From positions 1-34,811 of the forward strand of contig JAWXAT010000052.1 of NCBI GenBank assembly GCA_034439615.1: 34,811 nucleotides of DNA. The letters are read 5' to 3'. Shown here in pieces: positions 17,533 through 32,338 of this stretch. The notes beneath the pieces are model-generated. The model worked only from the letters and a program-made list of their open reading frames with translations, searched no databases and had not been told where the DNA came from. Source of the stretch: Oligoflexia bacterium (GTDB lineage Bacteria > Bdellovibrionota > Bdellovibrionia > JABDDW01). The number at the start of each line of letters is the position of its first letter. Position 1 is the stretch's first letter. The position numbers and the translations under genes were made by a program.

Positions 17533-18819
17533 TTATTTCTTTTTTTTAACAAGAGGCGCAGGCACCGTTTTACCTGGCATTAGAAGCACCGCCTTTTGGC
17601 CCGTGAATTTTTCCCACCGAGCAATAATCACGTCGCAATACTTGGGATCAAGCTCCATGAGCCTTGCTTTACGTTTTGTCTTCTCAGCGGCGATAAGCGT
17701 TGAACCCGAACCACCGAAAAGATCTAAAACAATACCATCTCTTTTACAGCTATTTCTAATGGCGCGCTCGATAAGTTCCACTGGTTTTTGTGTCGGATGA
17801 ACATACTCTGACGTATTCCCTCGGCTCATCTCCCAAACATCTGATTCGTCTTTTCCCCCAAGCCACTCACCGTCACAATAAAATATAAATTCATGCTGGG
17901 GCCTATAGTGAGACATCCCAAGGCCAATAGATTTTTTATTCCAAACAATGCAGGCTTTTGGTTTAAGGGAACTTTTAATCAGGGCCTTTTCAAATTCCGA
18001 AAATGTGCGCCAGGTAAAACAAACGTACACCCCAGCACTTGGTTTTTTAAAGGTAACACCACACTGAATGGCCTCTTGAACAAGTTTTATTAGATCAGCG
18101 CCCACTTTATCGTCATTAAGAATCATGCCGTGAGCTTTGATTTTCACAATCCCATTTTTATCAAGGACATGATTCCCAGGCTGCCTTCCCCCGCCATAAC
18201 TCATCCCATATGGAGGATCAGTAAATACAAGGTCAGTTTTTTCTCCACCCATAAGATTATGAACGTGACTCATGTTTGTAGAATCGCCACAAAGAAGACG
18301 GTGATCTCCAAGCTTAAAAACTTGTCCTAGTTTTGTTTTAGGAATTTTTGGAACCTCTGGCACTTCGTTTTCACTTGTACCGTCGGCTCCCGTATCTTCT
18401 TCCCCGTCAAGAAGTTCATCGAGTTCCGAATCTTGAAATCCCAAAACCGATAAATCAAATCCATCAAGCTCAAGAGCTTTTAATTCTTCTGATAGTAAAG
18501 TGTCATCCCACCCAGAATTTAAAGCGAGGCGATTGTCTGCAATGATGTAGGCACGTTTTTGAGAAGGAGTGAGATGATCTAAAACAATAACTGGAACTTC
18601 TTTCATGCCGAGAATATTCGCAGCCATCAATCTTCCGTGACCCGCGATGATTCCGGCTTGCGAGTCAACTAGGATTGGATTTGTAAATCCAAACTCTTCA
18701 ATCGAATTTGCAATTTGTTTTATTTGATCTTCAGAATGCGTACGGGGATTTTTCTGATAAGGTTTTAGCTTTTCAATTTCCCAGACTTCAAATTTCTTTG
18801 GTAGTTCTACTGATTCCAC
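17533..18819 (-). CDS. ParB-like domain - DNA methyltransferase fusion, 428 aa
   Basis: Residues about 10-135 match the ParB/sulfiredoxin-type domain of phage proteins, with G-I-I-A-G-H-G-R-L at 56-64 and D-N-R-L-A-L-N. Residues about 165-420 are a beta-class amino-methyltransferase: catalytic D-P-P-Y at 201-204 precedes the AdoMet-binding F-G-G-S-G at 368-372. Such enzymes methylate adenine N6 or cytosine N4; the target site cannot be read from sequence. The start is GTG at 18819 with GAGG five bases upstream. Position directly before terminase suggests protection of the phage genome from host restriction or marking of DNA for packaging. No restriction nuclease accompanies it, so it is an orphan methylase. 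Confidence 0.9.
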   Translation of the reverse strand: MESVELPKKFEVWEIEKLKPYQKNPRTHSEDQIKQIANSIEEFGFTNPILVDSQAGIIAGHGRLMAANILGMKEVPVIVLDHLTPSQKRAYIIADNRLALNSGWDDTLLSEELKALELDGFDLSVLGFQDSELDELLDGEEDTGADGTSENEVPEVPKIPKTKLGQVFKLGDHRLLCGDSTNMSHVHNLMGGEKTDLVFTDPPYGMSYGGGRQPGNHVLDKNGIVKIKAHGMILNDDKVGADLIKLVQEAIQCGVTFKKPSAGVYVCFTWRTFSEFEKALIKSSLKPKACIVWNKKSIGLGMSHYRPQHEFIFYCDGEWLGGKDESDVWEMSRGNTSEYVHPTQKPVELIERAIRNSCKRDGIVLDLFGGSGSTLIAAEKTKRKARLMELDPKYCDVIIARWEKFTGQKAVLLMPGKTVPAPLVKKKK

Positions 18820-19766: not shown

Positions 19767-20084
19767 TTAGGATTCTTCGCTGTCTTCTGCGGCTTCATCA
19801 TTTGCGGTCACCAACAAGCGATGACCTTCAAATACAGTAAGAATTTCGATGTGCTTCGAATAAACTTGGTAAACAATTCGGTAGGATTTTAACAATACCT
19901 CGCGAATCTTTTTTTCTTCAAACTCTGGAACGATTCTCCCAGCAAAGGGATGGGAAGCAGCCTGCTCAGTCTTCTTTTCAATTTTTAAAATCCACTGCTC
20001 GGCACCAGCAGGATTGTCTTTTGCAATAAACGCAGCAATTAAATCAAGATCCTCGCGAGAACGTGCAGACCAAATTATCTTCAT
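19767..20084 (-). CDS. ParE/RelE-family toxin, 105 aa
   Basis: The second gene of a type II toxin-antitoxin pair overlaps the antitoxin by ATGA. The fold pattern is clear: I-I-W-S-A-R-S-R-E-D-L-D-L-I-A-A-F-I at the N-terminus, H-P-F-A-G-R-I-V-P-E in the middle, then I-R-E-V-L-L-K-S-Y-R-I-V-Y-Q-V and I-L-T-V-F-E-G-H-R-L-L. The H-P-F/G-R-x-V-P-E and Y-R-I-V-Y elements are the ParE branch signature; ParE toxins poison gyrase, while RelE members cut mRNA, and sequence alone does not settle which applies. The C-terminus is an acidic extension of about ten residues. Confidence 0.88.
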   Translation of the reverse strand: MKIIWSARSREDLDLIAAFIAKDNPAGAEQWILKIEKKTEQAASHPFAGRIVPEFEEKKIREVLLKSYRIVYQVYSKHIEILTVFEGHRLLVTANDEAAEDSEES

Positions 20085-20374
20085 TTTTTCTTTTTAGTTC
20101 CATATTTAGCTTTTAATTCACCCATAACTTCCTGGTGGCTAAAAACTCGACCAGCTTTTACATCGGCCAAGCCTTCTTGAACAGCTTCAATAAACCGGCC
20201 ACGTTCATTTAAAGAATCGAATTCTTCAGGTGTAACTAGAACAGCAGCGGGTTTTCCGTTTTGAGTAATAACCACAGGACAATGGGATTCCTTAAGCTCA
20301 CGTAAAAACTGCGAGGCATGAACTTTAAAATCTCCCAGAGCAACAATATTTTTGGCAATTCGAATAGGTTTCAT
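20081..20374 (-). CDS. Phd/YefM-family antitoxin, 97 aa
   Basis: The first gene of the TA pair. The N-terminal half has the Phd DNA-binding pattern: F-K-V-H-A-S-Q-F-L-R-E-L, P-V-V-I-T-Q-N-G-K-P-A-A-V-L-V-T-P-E-E-F. The C-terminal half, ending in a Lys-rich tail, would wrap and neutralise the toxin. Upstream lies a strong promoter overlapped by two direct repeats, so autorepression is likely. The pair interrupts phage operon order and would act as a maintenance or anti-phage cassette in the lysogen; that role is inferred. Confidence 0.9.
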   Translation of the reverse strand: MKPIRIAKNIVALGDFKVHASQFLRELKESHCPVVITQNGKPAAVLVTPEEFDSLNERGRFIEAVQEGLADVKAGRVFSHQEVMGELKAKYGTKKKK

Positions 20375-20463: not shown

Positions 20464-20742
20464 CTATTTTAAATCATTCAAGAATCTGAAAGGTTCCTTT
20501 TCCTTCTTTTCCGCCAGAATCGCATGCGCCTTTTCGACCACTTCTCTCAGCTGATTGCATTCGGCATAAAGGATTTTTTCCCGAAGTCGCACCTCATCTT
20601 CAATTTGCCTTAGTCGCTTTATCTCTGCCTCCAAACGATCAATCTCTTCATAGGCCGCTTTCAAACCCGAAGTCAAAGTGGAATTATCAACCGAAAGAAC
20701 TGGATCTAAAATCAATTTTGCAAATCCATTTGCCTTATTCAT
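20464..20742 (-). CDS. Small coiled-coil protein, 92 aa
   Basis: The third gene of the replication block overlaps the loader gene by four bases. Residues about 28-80 form a continuous amphipathic coiled coil (E-E-I-D-R-L-E-A-E-I-K-R-L-R-Q-I, then L-R-E-V-V-E-K-A-H-A-I-L). The protein is highly charged, with no membrane segment or enzyme motif. No family was recognised. A role as a replication accessory or small dimerising regulator is possible from position alone. Confidence 0.6.
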   Translation of the reverse strand: MNKANGFAKLILDPVLSVDNSTLTSGLKAAYEEIDRLEAEIKRLRQIEDEVRLREKILYAECNQLREVVEKAHAILAEKKEKEPFRFLNDLK

Positions 20743-21326
20743 AACAGCTCCAGATGGTCGCGTGATTTTGCATGACCAGTATTTTCATCGTCGGAGCCGT
20801 CGATAAGTTTTTTTGTTTCACTCAACAAATTCCGATCACGAGCGTTTAACAATGGCGCTTGATTATCAAGACCGGCAGCTGCCCTTTTTAGCGAAGCCAA
20901 AGCAATATCTCGCAGTTGCGCTTGGATTATCGGTGTGTTTTGAACGGTCATCGTGTGACAAAGACTATTCCAGCCACCATATCGCTCCACCGCACGCCAG
21001 CCAAGCTCGCCAATGAACTTGCATGCCTCTGTAGGATTCACCCAACCGAATCGATTCACAGCTTGCAGAATTCTTCCCGCCGCCTCTCTAGCTTCAGATT
21101 CAAAATCAGTTGGAGGTAAAATTTGATCTAAAATTTCTTTGATCGAGGGAAATGGATCTCGCGTGCGACGAGTAGTAAATATTTTCTCAAGCGCCTGACA
21201 GATTTTCTCATAGCCGTAGGGCGCAAGGTAGCTGTCATAGGCTCTAAAAATCATCGTATCAAGATCGAAACTACAAACCTTGGCTAACACAGTAAGCTTC
21301 TCGAAAAACTGCTTTTCATAATTCAA
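20739..21326 (-). CDS. Putative helicase loader (P-like), 195 aa
   Basis: The gene follows the initiator with an ATGA overlap, as lambda P follows O. It is a mostly helical protein with E-K-I-C-Q-A-L-E-K-I-F-T-T-R-R-T-R-D-P-F-P-S-I-K-E-I-L in the first half; this pattern occurs in phage replication proteins that recruit the host DnaB helicase. There is no Walker A motif, so it is not a DnaC-type ATPase; lambda P also lacks one. The assignment combines gene order, size and the N-terminal pattern. Confidence 0.6.
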   Translation of the reverse strand: MNYEKQFFEKLTVLAKVCSFDLDTMIFRAYDSYLAPYGYEKICQALEKIFTTRRTRDPFPSIKEILDQILPPTDFESEAREAAGRILQAVNRFGWVNPTEACKFIGELGWRAVERYGGWNSLCHTMTVQNTPIIQAQLRDIALASLKRAAAGLDNQAPLLNARDRNLLSETKKLIDGSDDENTGHAKSRDHLELL

Positions 21327-22237
21327 GCCCCACTCCCATGTTTCTCCTGCCAGTACTCCTGGAGTGCCGAAACATTGTTGTCCATTCGCTCATTAGCCCT
21401 AGCTGAAACGGAATTGACTTTTCTCCCTGTGGCCCATTCAGTTCGAAGCTTCTCCGCATGACTGAGCATCAGACCCACGCCATGACAGTTCTTCTCGTAC
21501 TGAAAATCTCTATGGGTTAAATAAAAAGCTGCGACCTGTGGCGATTCTTCTCGGCCAAGCCTGTCAACAAACTGAGAGAGTTGACCTCCGACCTTGGCGT
21601 TCCAAACAGGTTCTTCTCCATATTTTGTCCTGTAGGCTTCTTTGTACGAACACCACGTTGCCTTTGTCTTTGGCTCCTCAACTAATTCCAAAGAAATTGG
21701 TAACTCAGGCGGCGGAGCGGTTTCATCAGAAACCCCCGGCGCTAAATTACTAGAAGCAGAATTTGAGAAAGAGGTAGAGGTAGAGGAAGAAGAAGAGAAA
21801 GAGGAAGAGGGTTGCGTTTGCTTACGTTTGGTTACACTTTGCTTACTTTTGCTTAAGCTTTGGTTACTTTTGGTTACAGTTTGGTCAACCTTTGCTTGAC
21901 GCTTGCTTGGCCAACGCTTATTAGCACTGGCTGCTCCTCCTTTTTTTGCCGCCTCCTGTCGTTCCACATACCAGGAGAACTTCTCCTCCGTTCCCCGAAC
22001 GTAGACATAGTCACCCCGGTCATCGGCGAACTTCACCTCAAAGACGGCATCAGGCATGCCCGCCTCAATCCAATGTTTTTTAGGGATAAGTTTTTTATCA
22101 AGAGACCAGAACTTCTGCGCCAGTTTCCAAGCGTTCGTCATTACACCATCCGCCTTGAATTGACAGCCAAGTTTAATCGCTAACTGCGCCCGGCGGTTAT
22201 CACCCCAATATTCATCCTCAATATTCAATCGCGCCAT
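21323..22237 (-). CDS. Putative replication initiator (O-like), 304 aa
   Basis: The first visible gene of the prophage operon, with AAGGGG before its ATG. Residues 1-115 look like a winged-helix initiator domain (Y-W-G-D-N-R-R-A-Q-L-A-I-K-L-G, then W-K-L-A-Q-K-F-W). Residues about 115-175 are a low-complexity linker: three seven-residue units such as VTKSNQS, then a Ser-rich run. Residues about 180-304 form a helical C-terminal domain with T-W-C-S-Y-K-E-A-Y, probably the loader-binding part. The linker DNA carries iteron-like repeats, so the origin probably lies inside the gene, as it does in lambda O. Confidence 0.7.
   Translation of the reverse strand: MARLNIEDEYWGDNRRAQLAIKLGCQFKADGVMTNAWKLAQKFWSLDKKLIPKKHWIEAGMPDAVFEVKFADDRGDYVYVRGTEEKFSWYVERQEAAKKGGAASANKRWPSKRQAKVDQTVTKSNQSLSKSKQSVTKRKQTQPSSSFSSSSSTSTSFSNSASSNLAPGVSDETAPPPELPISLELVEEPKTKATWCSYKEAYRTKYGEEPVWNAKVGGQLSQFVDRLGREESPQVAAFYLTHRDFQYEKNCHGVGLMLSHAEKLRTEWATGRKVNSVSARANERMDNNVSALQEYWQEKHGSGA
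21765..21877 (-). other. Candidate replication origin: iterons plus polypyrimidine tract
   Basis: Minus-strand bases 21877-21815 are three 21-base units, each made of two copies of an (A/T)-rich decamer with core TAA(C/G)CAAA. The six cores are spaced 10 and 11 bases alternately, close to one helical turn. The core falls in two different reading frames (V-T-K or L-S-K in one, S-N-Q or S-K-Q in the next), so it is conserved as DNA rather than only as protein. Directly downstream, 21811-21765 is a 47-base pyrimidine strand broken by only two purines, a plausible unwinding element. A degenerate extra unit may lie at 21900-21878. Confidence 0.6.
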
Positions 22238-22439: not shown

Positions 22440-22516
22440 GGCCCCGTAGCTCAGTTGGATAGAGCAACAGATTTCTAATCTGTGGGTCGCATGTTCGAGT
22501 CATGCCGGGGTCACCA
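22440..22516 (+). tRNA. tRNA-Arg (anticodon UCU)
   Basis: A complete 77-base cloverleaf with encoded CCA. The acceptor pairs GGCCCCG with CGGGGTC (one G-U). The D-arm runs GCTC...GAGC. The anticodon stem ACAGA/TCTGT holds the loop TTTCTAA, anticodon TCT reading AGA. The T-arm is GCATG-TTCGAGT-CATGC. Its 5' end faces the prophage. Confidence 0.95.
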
Positions 22517-22676: not shown

Positions 22677-22753
22677 GGTCCGGTAGCTCAGTTGGATAGA
22701 GCAACGGCCTTCTAAGCCGTAGGTCAGTGGTTCGAGTCCACTCCGGATCACCA
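22677..22753 (+). tRNA. tRNA-Arg (anticodon UCU), second copy
   Basis: A second complete cloverleaf of 77 bases with encoded CCA. The acceptor pairs GGTCCGG with CCGGATC (one G-U). The anticodon stem ACGGC/GCCGT holds the loop CTTCTAA, again anticodon TCT. It is identical to the first tRNA through the D-arm but differs in the acceptor, anticodon and T stems, so it is not a recent duplicate. Confidence 0.95.
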
Positions 22754-22860: not shown

Positions 22861-22989
22861 ATGTACAAGGCCGCGTTTATCATTAAAAAAGAACGATTTG
22901 CAAAGTTGAATCCTGGTATTTCTGAATCTGAGCTGCATCAAAAAACTATCGATTATTTTCGTAAGCTGTCTGAGAACAAATCTTGGTAG
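22861..22989 (+). CDS. Small protein coupled to nucleotidyltransferase, 42 aa
   Basis: An ATG at 22861 opens 42 codons ending in TAG at 22989, overlapping the TTG start of the next gene by seven bases. The product contains A-F-I-I-K-K-E-R-F-A-K-L-N-P-G-I-S-E-S-E-L and I-D-Y-F-R-K-L. It resembles the short proteins of about 50-80 residues often found just before DUF6036/AbiEii-like nucleotidyltransferases. The frame stays open upstream to a TAG at 22813 without an ATG, GTG or TTG, so either the protein is short or its 5' end has been lost. The ribosome binding site is poor. This recognition is from memory of the family, not from a search. Confidence 0.45.
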   Translation: MYKAAFIIKKERFAKLNPGISESELHQKTIDYFRKLSENKSW

Positions 22990-23528
22990 GTCCACTTGAG
23001 GTTCTCAAAGATATTGTGGATCGATTTGAAACCGCTAAAGTTGATTATTTTTTAGTCGGTTCACTAGCCGCAATGTATTATGGTCGTCCAAGGTTTACCA
23101 ACGATGTTGATTTAGTTGTTCATATAAATCCCACGCAGATCAACGAGTTTGAAAAACTATTTCATATTGATGACTACTATTGCCCACCACTTGAAGTTTT
23201 AAAAGATGAAGTTCTTCGGCAAGGCACATTTAATCTTATTCATCAAACCAGTGAAATAAAAATTAATATTGTTCTTCGAAAAAAAACTCCATTTTCAACT
23301 TCAGAATTCAGCAGACGAAATTTAGTAAAATTGGCACCTGATTTTGAAGTCTATATTGCAACACCTGAAGATGTCATCATCAAGAAACTAGATTTTTACA
23401 GAGAAGGTGGTTCTGAAAAATATCTTGTAGATGTTAGAGAAATACTAGCAGGTACAGAGGTTGATAAAATTTATCTTAATAAATGGATCATGCAATTAGG
23501 CCTGCTACGTGAATGGGAGAAAATCTAA
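22983..23528 (+). CDS. AbiEii/DUF6036-like nucleotidyltransferase, 181 aa
   Basis: A cytosolic enzyme of the DNA polymerase beta-type nucleotidyltransferase superfamily. The diagnostic stretch is F-L-V-G-S-L-A-A-M-Y-Y-G-R-P-R-F at residues 23-38, followed by T-N-D-V-D-L-V-V, giving the G-S and D-x-D motifs. Later P-E-D-V-I-I-K-K-L-D-F-Y matches the catalytic-domain end seen in the DUF6036 and AbiEii groups. The only possible start in frame after an upstream TGA is TTG at 22983. Several such enzymes act as toxins that modify tRNA or other RNA; the tiny upstream gene would then be the partner. The substrate is not known. Base composition is lower in G+C than the prophage. Confidence 0.82.
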   Translation: MVGPLEVLKDIVDRFETAKVDYFLVGSLAAMYYGRPRFTNDVDLVVHINPTQINEFEKLFHIDDYYCPPLEVLKDEVLRQGTFNLIHQTSEIKINIVLRKKTPFSTSEFSRRNLVKLAPDFEVYIATPEDVIIKKLDFYREGGSEKYLVDVREILAGTEVDKIYLNKWIMQLGLLREWEKI

Positions 23529-23679: not shown

Positions 23680-24006
23680 ATGAGTGACAAGCCAAAGCAT
23701 TATTCGTTAAAAATTTTTGTTAACAATCATAAAATAAGTTCTGTTCTTATAGGCCGTCATTATCTTCTTAAGCACAGCTCCTCTATGAACGACGAGATTA
23801 TTTTGCAATTGGTGATGGCTTTAGATGAAGGAACCTTCCCTGTTGATTCGACTGTAGACGGTATTGAATATTTTGTTGCCGATGTCGAAATTGGAAATCC
23901 CAATAAGGTTTATAGAATCATTTGGCTTTTTGAAGGTGAGTTTTTAGAGGTGTTAGGAGTGATTAATGCTTACAGAAGAAAGAAAAAGAGAGGTCAAAAC
24001 AAATGA
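23680..24006 (+). CDS. Putative toxin of a toxin-first TA pair, 108 aa
   Basis: The gene begins with ATG and an AAGGAG box ten bases upstream. The product is a small alpha/beta protein: a beta start, H-Y-L-L-K-H-S-S-S-M-N-D-E-I-I (two His), a strand G-I-E-Y-F-V-A-D-V-E, then Y-R-I-I-W-L-F-E-G and a final G-V-I-N-A-Y-R-R followed by a basic tail. The Y-R-x-I-W-L and N-A-Y-R-R elements are reminiscent of RelE/BrnT-like or DUF4258-like toxins, but I could not assign a family. It overlaps the RHH gene by ATGA and has a palindromic operator upstream. Toxin function is inferred from size, order and partner. Confidence 0.7.
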   Translation: MSDKPKHYSLKIFVNNHKISSVLIGRHYLLKHSSSMNDEIILQLVMALDEGTFPVDSTVDGIEYFVADVEIGNPNKVYRIIWLFEGEFLEVLGVINAYRRKKKRGQNK

Positions 24007-24260
24007 AAACTAAGAAAAGTAAACTTGAGACTTTATCAAAGAAACAAATAGAGAATATCACTGAGAAGGTTGAGAAACGATCAGATATTCCCTTGGTATC
24101 ATCTAAACAAGTAAATATGCGCGTTAACAGTGAACTACTTCAACGCATAAAACTTTTAGCAGCCGCTCAGAGACTGCCCTTCACTACTTTCTTAGGAAAA
24201 CTGATTAAAGAAGATGTTGATCGACTTTGGAAGGTTTTCAAAAAAGTTAGTGGTGACTAA
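24003..24260 (+). CDS. Ribbon-helix-helix (CopG/BrnA-like) antitoxin, 85 aa
   Basis: Residues about 36-75 match a ribbon-helix-helix DNA-binding domain: V-N-M-R-V-N-S-E-L-L-Q-R-I-K-L-L-A-A-A-Q-R, then P-F-T-T-F-L-G-K-L-I-K. The basic N-terminal arm (residues 1-32) would lie on the toxin. Unusually for simple type II systems, this gene comes second, as in BrnTA and HigBA. It likely represses the promoter through the CTGTAATTACAG palindrome. No other gene is in the operon. Confidence 0.78.
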   Translation: MKTKKSKLETLSKKQIENITEKVEKRSDIPLVSSKQVNMRVNSELLQRIKLLAAAQRLPFTTFLGKLIKEDVDRLWKVFKKVSGD

Positions 24261-31717: not shown

Positions 31718-32338
31718 ATGAAAAAGAAAAAATCAAAGACGCTACTAGCCAAAACATCTGTGATTTCTGAGAGCGATCTCACACATTTAAGTGACAACAT
31801 ACGCGATGTTCTCAACCACATCGGAGAAGATCCCAAGCGTGAAGGCCTTCTAAAAACCCCTGAGCGCTATGCTAAAGCCCTTGCTTACCTCACCAGCGGT
31901 TACGCTAAATGCCCCAGTACAGTTCTCAATGGCGCTATCTTTCACGAACAGTACGATGAAATGGTCGTCGTTAAAGACATCGAAATGTACAGTCTTTGCG
32001 AACATCATATGCTTCCGTTTTTTGGTAAAGTTCATGTGGCTTATATTCCAAACGGGAAAATTGTAGGTTTAAGTAAAGTCGCACGCATGGTCGATGTATT
32101 TGCCAGACGCCTTCAAGTTCAAGAACGATTAACCACTGAAATTGCACAAACACTTGTTGATCTGCTTGAACCTCGAGGAGTTGGAGTCGTAATTGAGGCC
32201 AAACATCTTTGTATGATGATGAGAGGTGTTGAAAAACAAAACTCATCAATGGTGACAAGTTCCATGCAAGGTGTCTTTAGAGACTCAGACGTGACACGAA
32301 AAGAATTCTTAAGCCTGATAAAATTTGGACAAAATTAA
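31718..32338 (+). CDS. folE: GTP cyclohydrolase I (FolE), 206 aa
   Basis: It converts GTP to 7,8-dihydroneopterin triphosphate, the first step of folate and pterin synthesis, in the cytosol. A TAGGAA box lies seven bases before the ATG. The zinc ligands Cys94 (S-L-C-E-H-H), His97 and Cys165 (H-L-C-M-M-M-R-G-V) are present, as are E-D-P-x-R-E-G-L-x-x-T-P-E-R near 37-50 and G-L-S-K-V-A-R at 117-123. Length is slightly under the E. coli enzyme (222 aa), with a Lys-rich start. It stands alone and is convergent with the next gene. Confidence 0.97.

Follow-up and report, generated by a model that had tools for sequence, protein, structure and literature searches.

A phased iteron array within the initiator gene of an integrated tailed prophage, a probable replication origin

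That a replication origin can be placed centrally within the initiator gene is already textbook knowledge for lambdoid phages. Gene O of these phages carries four iterons (six in Stx phages) and an AT-rich tract mid-gene (PMC7466680). Within the open-access literature, no published account was found of a one-turn iteron design in an initiator linker, nor any literature on the domain DUF6291; DUF1376 is mentioned in five papers, none of which links it to both phage and origin of replication. Short direct repeats spaced at 10-11 bp are also a property of parC of plasmid R1, where they are bound by ParR.

The DNA analysed here, termed the window, is a stretch of 34,811 nt from an Oligoflexia bacterium. 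Its minus strand carries a phage initiator gene with an array of short repeats in the segment encoding the interdomain linker, and the array is, judging from the sequence, very probably the replication origin of a tailed prophage. The features are, in the direction of transcription:

21323 to 22237, minus strand: initiator gene (open reading frame; phrog_11527, E 2.2e-33), 304 aa, comprising N-terminal domain, repeat-bearing linker and C-terminal helical domain
21902 to 22237, minus strand: N-terminal domain, probably DNA-binding, codons 1-112, ending in KKGGAAS; 35% identity to relative L154
21817 to 21909, minus strand: initiator-internal array of nine TAASCAAA-like units, mean spacing 10.6 bp
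21869 to 21876, minus strand: exact core TAACCAAA
21859 to 21866, minus strand: exact core TAACCAAA
21848 to 21855, minus strand: exact core TAAGCAAA
21838 to 21845, minus strand: exact core TAAGCAAA
21827 to 21834, minus strand: exact core TAACCAAA
21817 to 21824, minus strand: exact core TAAGCAAA
21765 to 21811, minus strand: pyrimidine tract directly after the array, 45 of 47 positions pyrimidine, with a pure run at 21782-21811
21335 to 21670, minus strand: C-terminal helical domain, codons 190-301, pLDDT about 97, common to phages with many N-terminal domains
20739 to 21326, minus strand: next gene, overlapping the stop codon of the initiator; from its position a candidate helicase-loading partner; L156 has a homologue at the equivalent place (E 2.9e-24)

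An earlier note on this DNA described six copies of TAA(C/G)CAAA spaced 10 and 11 bases in turn, and all six are exact, on the minus strand between 21817 and 21876 (CDS starts 361, 371, 382, 392, 403 and 413, 0-based). The spacing of the cores thus alternates between 10 and 11 bp, and their codon phase between 1 and 2. Three degenerate copies, CAAGCAAA and TGACCAAA with one mismatch each and CAAGCAAG with two, prolong the array in phase to 21909, such that the nine units follow at steps of 11, 11, 11, 10, 11, 10, 11 and 10, at 330-420 bp downstream of the initiator start codon. Order-3 Markov copies of the window (60 runs) gave at most two exact cores per comparable span. A search for the core elsewhere in the genome, also suggested in the earlier note, had a divided outcome. 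Lone TAASCAAA cores are common genome-wide (371, vs 455 for the reversed word), but the 3.0 Mb genome has no other place where neighbouring cores are separated by 2-3 bp; thus it is the array that is unusual and not the word.

The earlier note also stated that the core is read in two reading frames and that selection appears to act on the DNA, and recoding tests support this, as do the relatives described below. With each of two codon models, 200,000 synonymous recodings of the array peptide yielded no more than four cores, as against the six observed, and the linker of the window gene holds 24 repeated 8-mers where 2.1 are expected from recodings. Spacers between the cores vary while the cores are exact. 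Serine codons are AGY in six of six cases in or just before the array and TCN in 13 of 14 in the adjoining tract (P 1.8e-4). This switch, together with the recoding result, indicates that the DNA itself is constrained. A low-complexity protein as the source of the repeats was ruled out by synonymous recoding. A close relative of the window's exact array was not found, so synonymous conservation was tested in relatives only.

The array is followed directly by a tract that the earlier note gave as a 47-base pyrimidine strand; the tract is present at that length, but two A residues interrupt it. Its pure run of 30 nt is the longest purine/pyrimidine run in the window, and with two interruptions permitted the longest tract of 47 compares with a mean of 19.6 in synonymous recodings. 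The tract region is 58% AT and moderately unstable (86th percentile for instability). A strongly AT-rich unwinding element was looked for beside the array and none was found, and no DnaA box is present in the prophage part of the window.

Additional information can be garnered from the two domains that border the linker. The predicted structure of the C-terminal domain is confident and all-helical. The C-terminal 120 residues of the initiator share 37-41% identity with homologues annotated as 'replication protein' or 'primosomal protein I' in the Pseudomonas phages F116, phiAH14a and Medea1 and the Erwinia phage Pavtok, and the conserved motif WxxYxxAY...AEKxRTxWxTG is present in the window protein. 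The best PHROG for the initiator, phrog_11527, is of unknown function. No Pfam or NCBIfam family covers the initiator or the product of the next gene. The N-terminal domain is probably a DNA-binding domain, to judge from its sequence. In the predicted structure of the initiator it is a low-confidence helix-helix-hairpin, winged-helix-like; a further model of this domain, built from two sequences, was poor (pLDDT 47). A PDB fold search returned no meaningful match; in a viral structure library, helix-turn-helix phage proteins of similar layout were matched with low overall TM-scores. Direct tblastn in phages and plasmids found no relatives of the N-terminal domain, and a first scan of genome contigs with the whole initiator protein likewise found nothing.

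Relatives sharing the C-terminal domain were gathered by scanning viral and genome contigs with that domain, i.e. they were chosen by protein and not by repeats. Their N-terminal domains vary widely and their linker repeats differ from one another, and the repeats stay in the linker whatever their sequence. Repeated 8-mers exceed synonymous recodings in the linker of 39 of 47 non-redundant homologues (1961 observed vs 246 expected) and in the C-terminal domain of two of the 47 (60 observed vs 51 expected); part of the linker excess could derive from recent duplication. Synonymous-site conservation in homologous genes, a check named in the earlier note, was measured in 38 F116-like initiators. 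The iteron linker reaches a synonymous codon identity of 0.96 and a second repeat block 0.95, vs about 0.70 elsewhere (N-terminal domain 0.72, spacer 0.68, C-terminal domain 0.70), which is direct evidence that the linker DNA is under selection in these genes.

Relatives by the N-terminal domain display the same layout. In L154, units of the TCAACC/TGACC type (TCAACCAGGGC, TCAACCCAGGT, TGACCAAGGT and TCAACC) lie at 10-11 bp and are followed by a 45-nt pyrimidine tract. L236, a more diverged relative of the same phylum (weak N-terminal match, E 5e-4), carries four GCCAAA units spaced 11 bp, with a pyrimidine-rich stretch after them. Between the window gene and these two the peptides differ and the DNA layout is kept. 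In viral sequence, the pattern CAAAN(2,3)TAASCAAAN(2,3)TAASCAAA was found in 97 stretches, compared with 43 for a reversed control. After deduplication, 30 of 78 matches fall within open frames and have a GG motif shortly before them, vs none of 38 controls. The pattern-selected arrays extend beyond the matched bases at 11-bp steps, and several belong to DUF6291 or DUF1376 genes. TAASCAAA arrays were also seen outside long open frames in viral contigs L025, L030, L032, L061 and L062, possibly as stand-alone origins or centromeres.

Since the pattern set had been chosen by DNA, nine DUF6291 genes were taken by protein alone. An earlier periodicity test with a fixed TAASCAAA-like core failed in seven of these nine, because their cores differ. 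A core-free lag test was applied to twelve genes, i.e. the nine plus the window gene, L154 and L236. The excess of self-identity over recodings is greatest at lags of 10 and 11 (mean z 2.3 and 1.9; other lags at most 1.2), with individual signals ranging from weak (z 1.5) to strong (3.6). A peptide repeat would not account for the signal, neither lag being divisible by three. In the DUF6291 genes, as in the window gene, the periodic stretch follows a KGG motif. In two DUF6291 records, dnaB or a primase/helicase gene comes directly after. The window protein itself has no Pfam match to DUF6291 or DUF1376 at E 0.1.

The genomic surroundings are those of a phage. The initiator is surrounded by terminase, portal, head and tail genes, with host genes beyond tRNA-Arg genes, so the element is an integrated prophage. 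A viral contig of IMG/VR is identical over 5083 bp. The prophage is bordered by two tandem tRNA-Arg (TCT) genes (22440-22516 and 22677-22753) that are only 77% identical; the first of them possibly belongs to the phage or marks the attachment site. A duplicate of a tRNA-Arg end, which would mark the other prophage end, was sought and not found. Within the prophage, a Phd/YefM antitoxin and ParE toxin pair (19767-20374) lies between the replication and packaging genes, and a ParB N-terminal domain fused to an N4/N6 DNA methyltransferase (17533-18819) adjoins the terminase genes. A tail-fibre-like gene contains three 195-bp direct repeats (435-1124), about 70% alike. Just past the tRNAs are an AbiEii-like nucleotidyltransferase and a CopG-type antitoxin with its upstream partner gene (22983-23528 and 23680-24260). 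A predicted tRNA-Ala (AGC, 31812-31902), which overlaps the opposite-strand gene for GTP cyclohydrolase I, is probably spurious.

A helicase-loading role for the gene next to the initiator is a candidate assignment made by position, the product having no recognised domain. The homologous initiator of L252 (1975-3372) is directly followed by an IstB/DnaC-type ATPase, which makes the O-P logic plausible; at this place most relatives encode a small protein from another family, one of unknown function. The labels 'O-like' and 'P-like' given to the two genes in the earlier note hold by position and layout only; no homology of either gene to lambda O or P was found.

Initiators often autoregulate. 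The array could accordingly be read as an operator at which the initiator binds its own gene and regulates transcription of the replication operon, with no replication start there; when filled, an array this far into the gene could block elongation. The normal site of an operator is the promoter, however, and across homologues the repeats lie well inside the gene, in the linker, whatever their sequence. An adjoining pyrimidine tract would not be expected either, and a purely regulatory array is improbable.

The repeats could instead be the by-product of a disordered linker rich in Lys, Ser and Gln, or the outcome of a recent microsatellite-like expansion. Linkers are tolerant and of low complexity, and tandem duplication likewise yields identical codons. 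Cores in alternating frames at 10/11 bp are, however, not something that a peptide repeat can demand, spacers differ where cores are exact, and recodings fail to reproduce the array. With the lag 10 and 11 signal recurring in unrelated genes and F116-like linkers conserved at synonymous sites, both versions are highly improbable. One-turn direct repeats are typical of partition centromeres such as parC of R1, but segregation of a plasmid-like prophage by the array is scarcely credible, given that it lies in an initiator homologue, that the prophage is integrated and flanked by host genes, and that no ParM/ParR or TubZ/TubR pair was found in those genes of the window that were searched, the prophage being truncated on its left by the contig end.

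The recoding tests and the relatives thus support the proposal of the earlier note that iterons inside the initiator gene form a candidate phage origin. For such an origin, binding, wrapping, opening and helicase recruitment may be envisaged as follows. The N-terminal domain would bind the repeats. With units spaced by one helical turn, molecules bound one after another would all lie on one side of the double helix and could assemble cooperatively into a nucleoprotein complex. The assembly would strain and open the adjoining DNA, for which the strand-asymmetric pyrimidine tract or its immediate vicinity is the likeliest site, and the C-terminal helical domain and the product of the next gene would then bring in the host replicative helicase.

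A single design could tentatively be extended, at somewhat less than even confidence, to phage initiators in very large number: a DNA-binding domain that can be exchanged and that ends in a KGG-type motif, then, within the same gene, its own matching iterons at 10-11 bp, a strand-asymmetric tract and a helicase-recruiting domain. DUF6291, DUF1376 and the window domain would be related origin-binding domains that read variants of the core A(A/G)(C/G)CAAA. Recognition domain and origin would travel as one cassette, so that origin specificity could be changed by a single recombination. If this is true, the origins of many uncharacterised phages could be read from the initiator linker, and two Pfam domains of 'unknown function' (DUF6291 and DUF1376) would gain a testable role. 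The cassette would likewise be a clear model for the swapping of origin specificity among phages, and one-turn iterons a simple system for DNA opening by one-face assembly of an initiator.

Among known systems, parC/ParR of R1 shares with the window direct repeats about one helical turn apart, but the window array lies inside an initiator gene and has no recognised partition genes with it. Genes for DUF6291 (PF19808) and DUF1376 (PF07120) proteins have 10-11 bp repeats immediately after an [N/A]GxKGG-type motif, with the TAASCAAA core in some members; many members differ in having other cores (AACCTAA, AACCCCAA). The proteins of phrog_11527 and the replication proteins of F116, phiAH14a, Medea1 and Pavtok share the homologous C-terminal domain and the presence of linker repeats, whereas their N-terminal domains are unrelated to that of the window and so are their repeats, TCGGAAAAATATCCGA-type in F116 and GGTAGGTTCA-type in Pavtok. 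With oriLambda the window shares iterons mid-initiator gene and an initiator gene followed by the gene for a helicase-loading partner (a candidate in the window). It differs in an initiator without detectable homology to O or P, in nine units spaced at one helical turn (10.6 bp) where those of lambda are at about two, and in a pyrimidine tract where lambda has its AT-rich tract. The best reading, by analogy, is that the window origin would follow the same principle as oriLambda, but with a non-homologous initiator and one-turn iterons.
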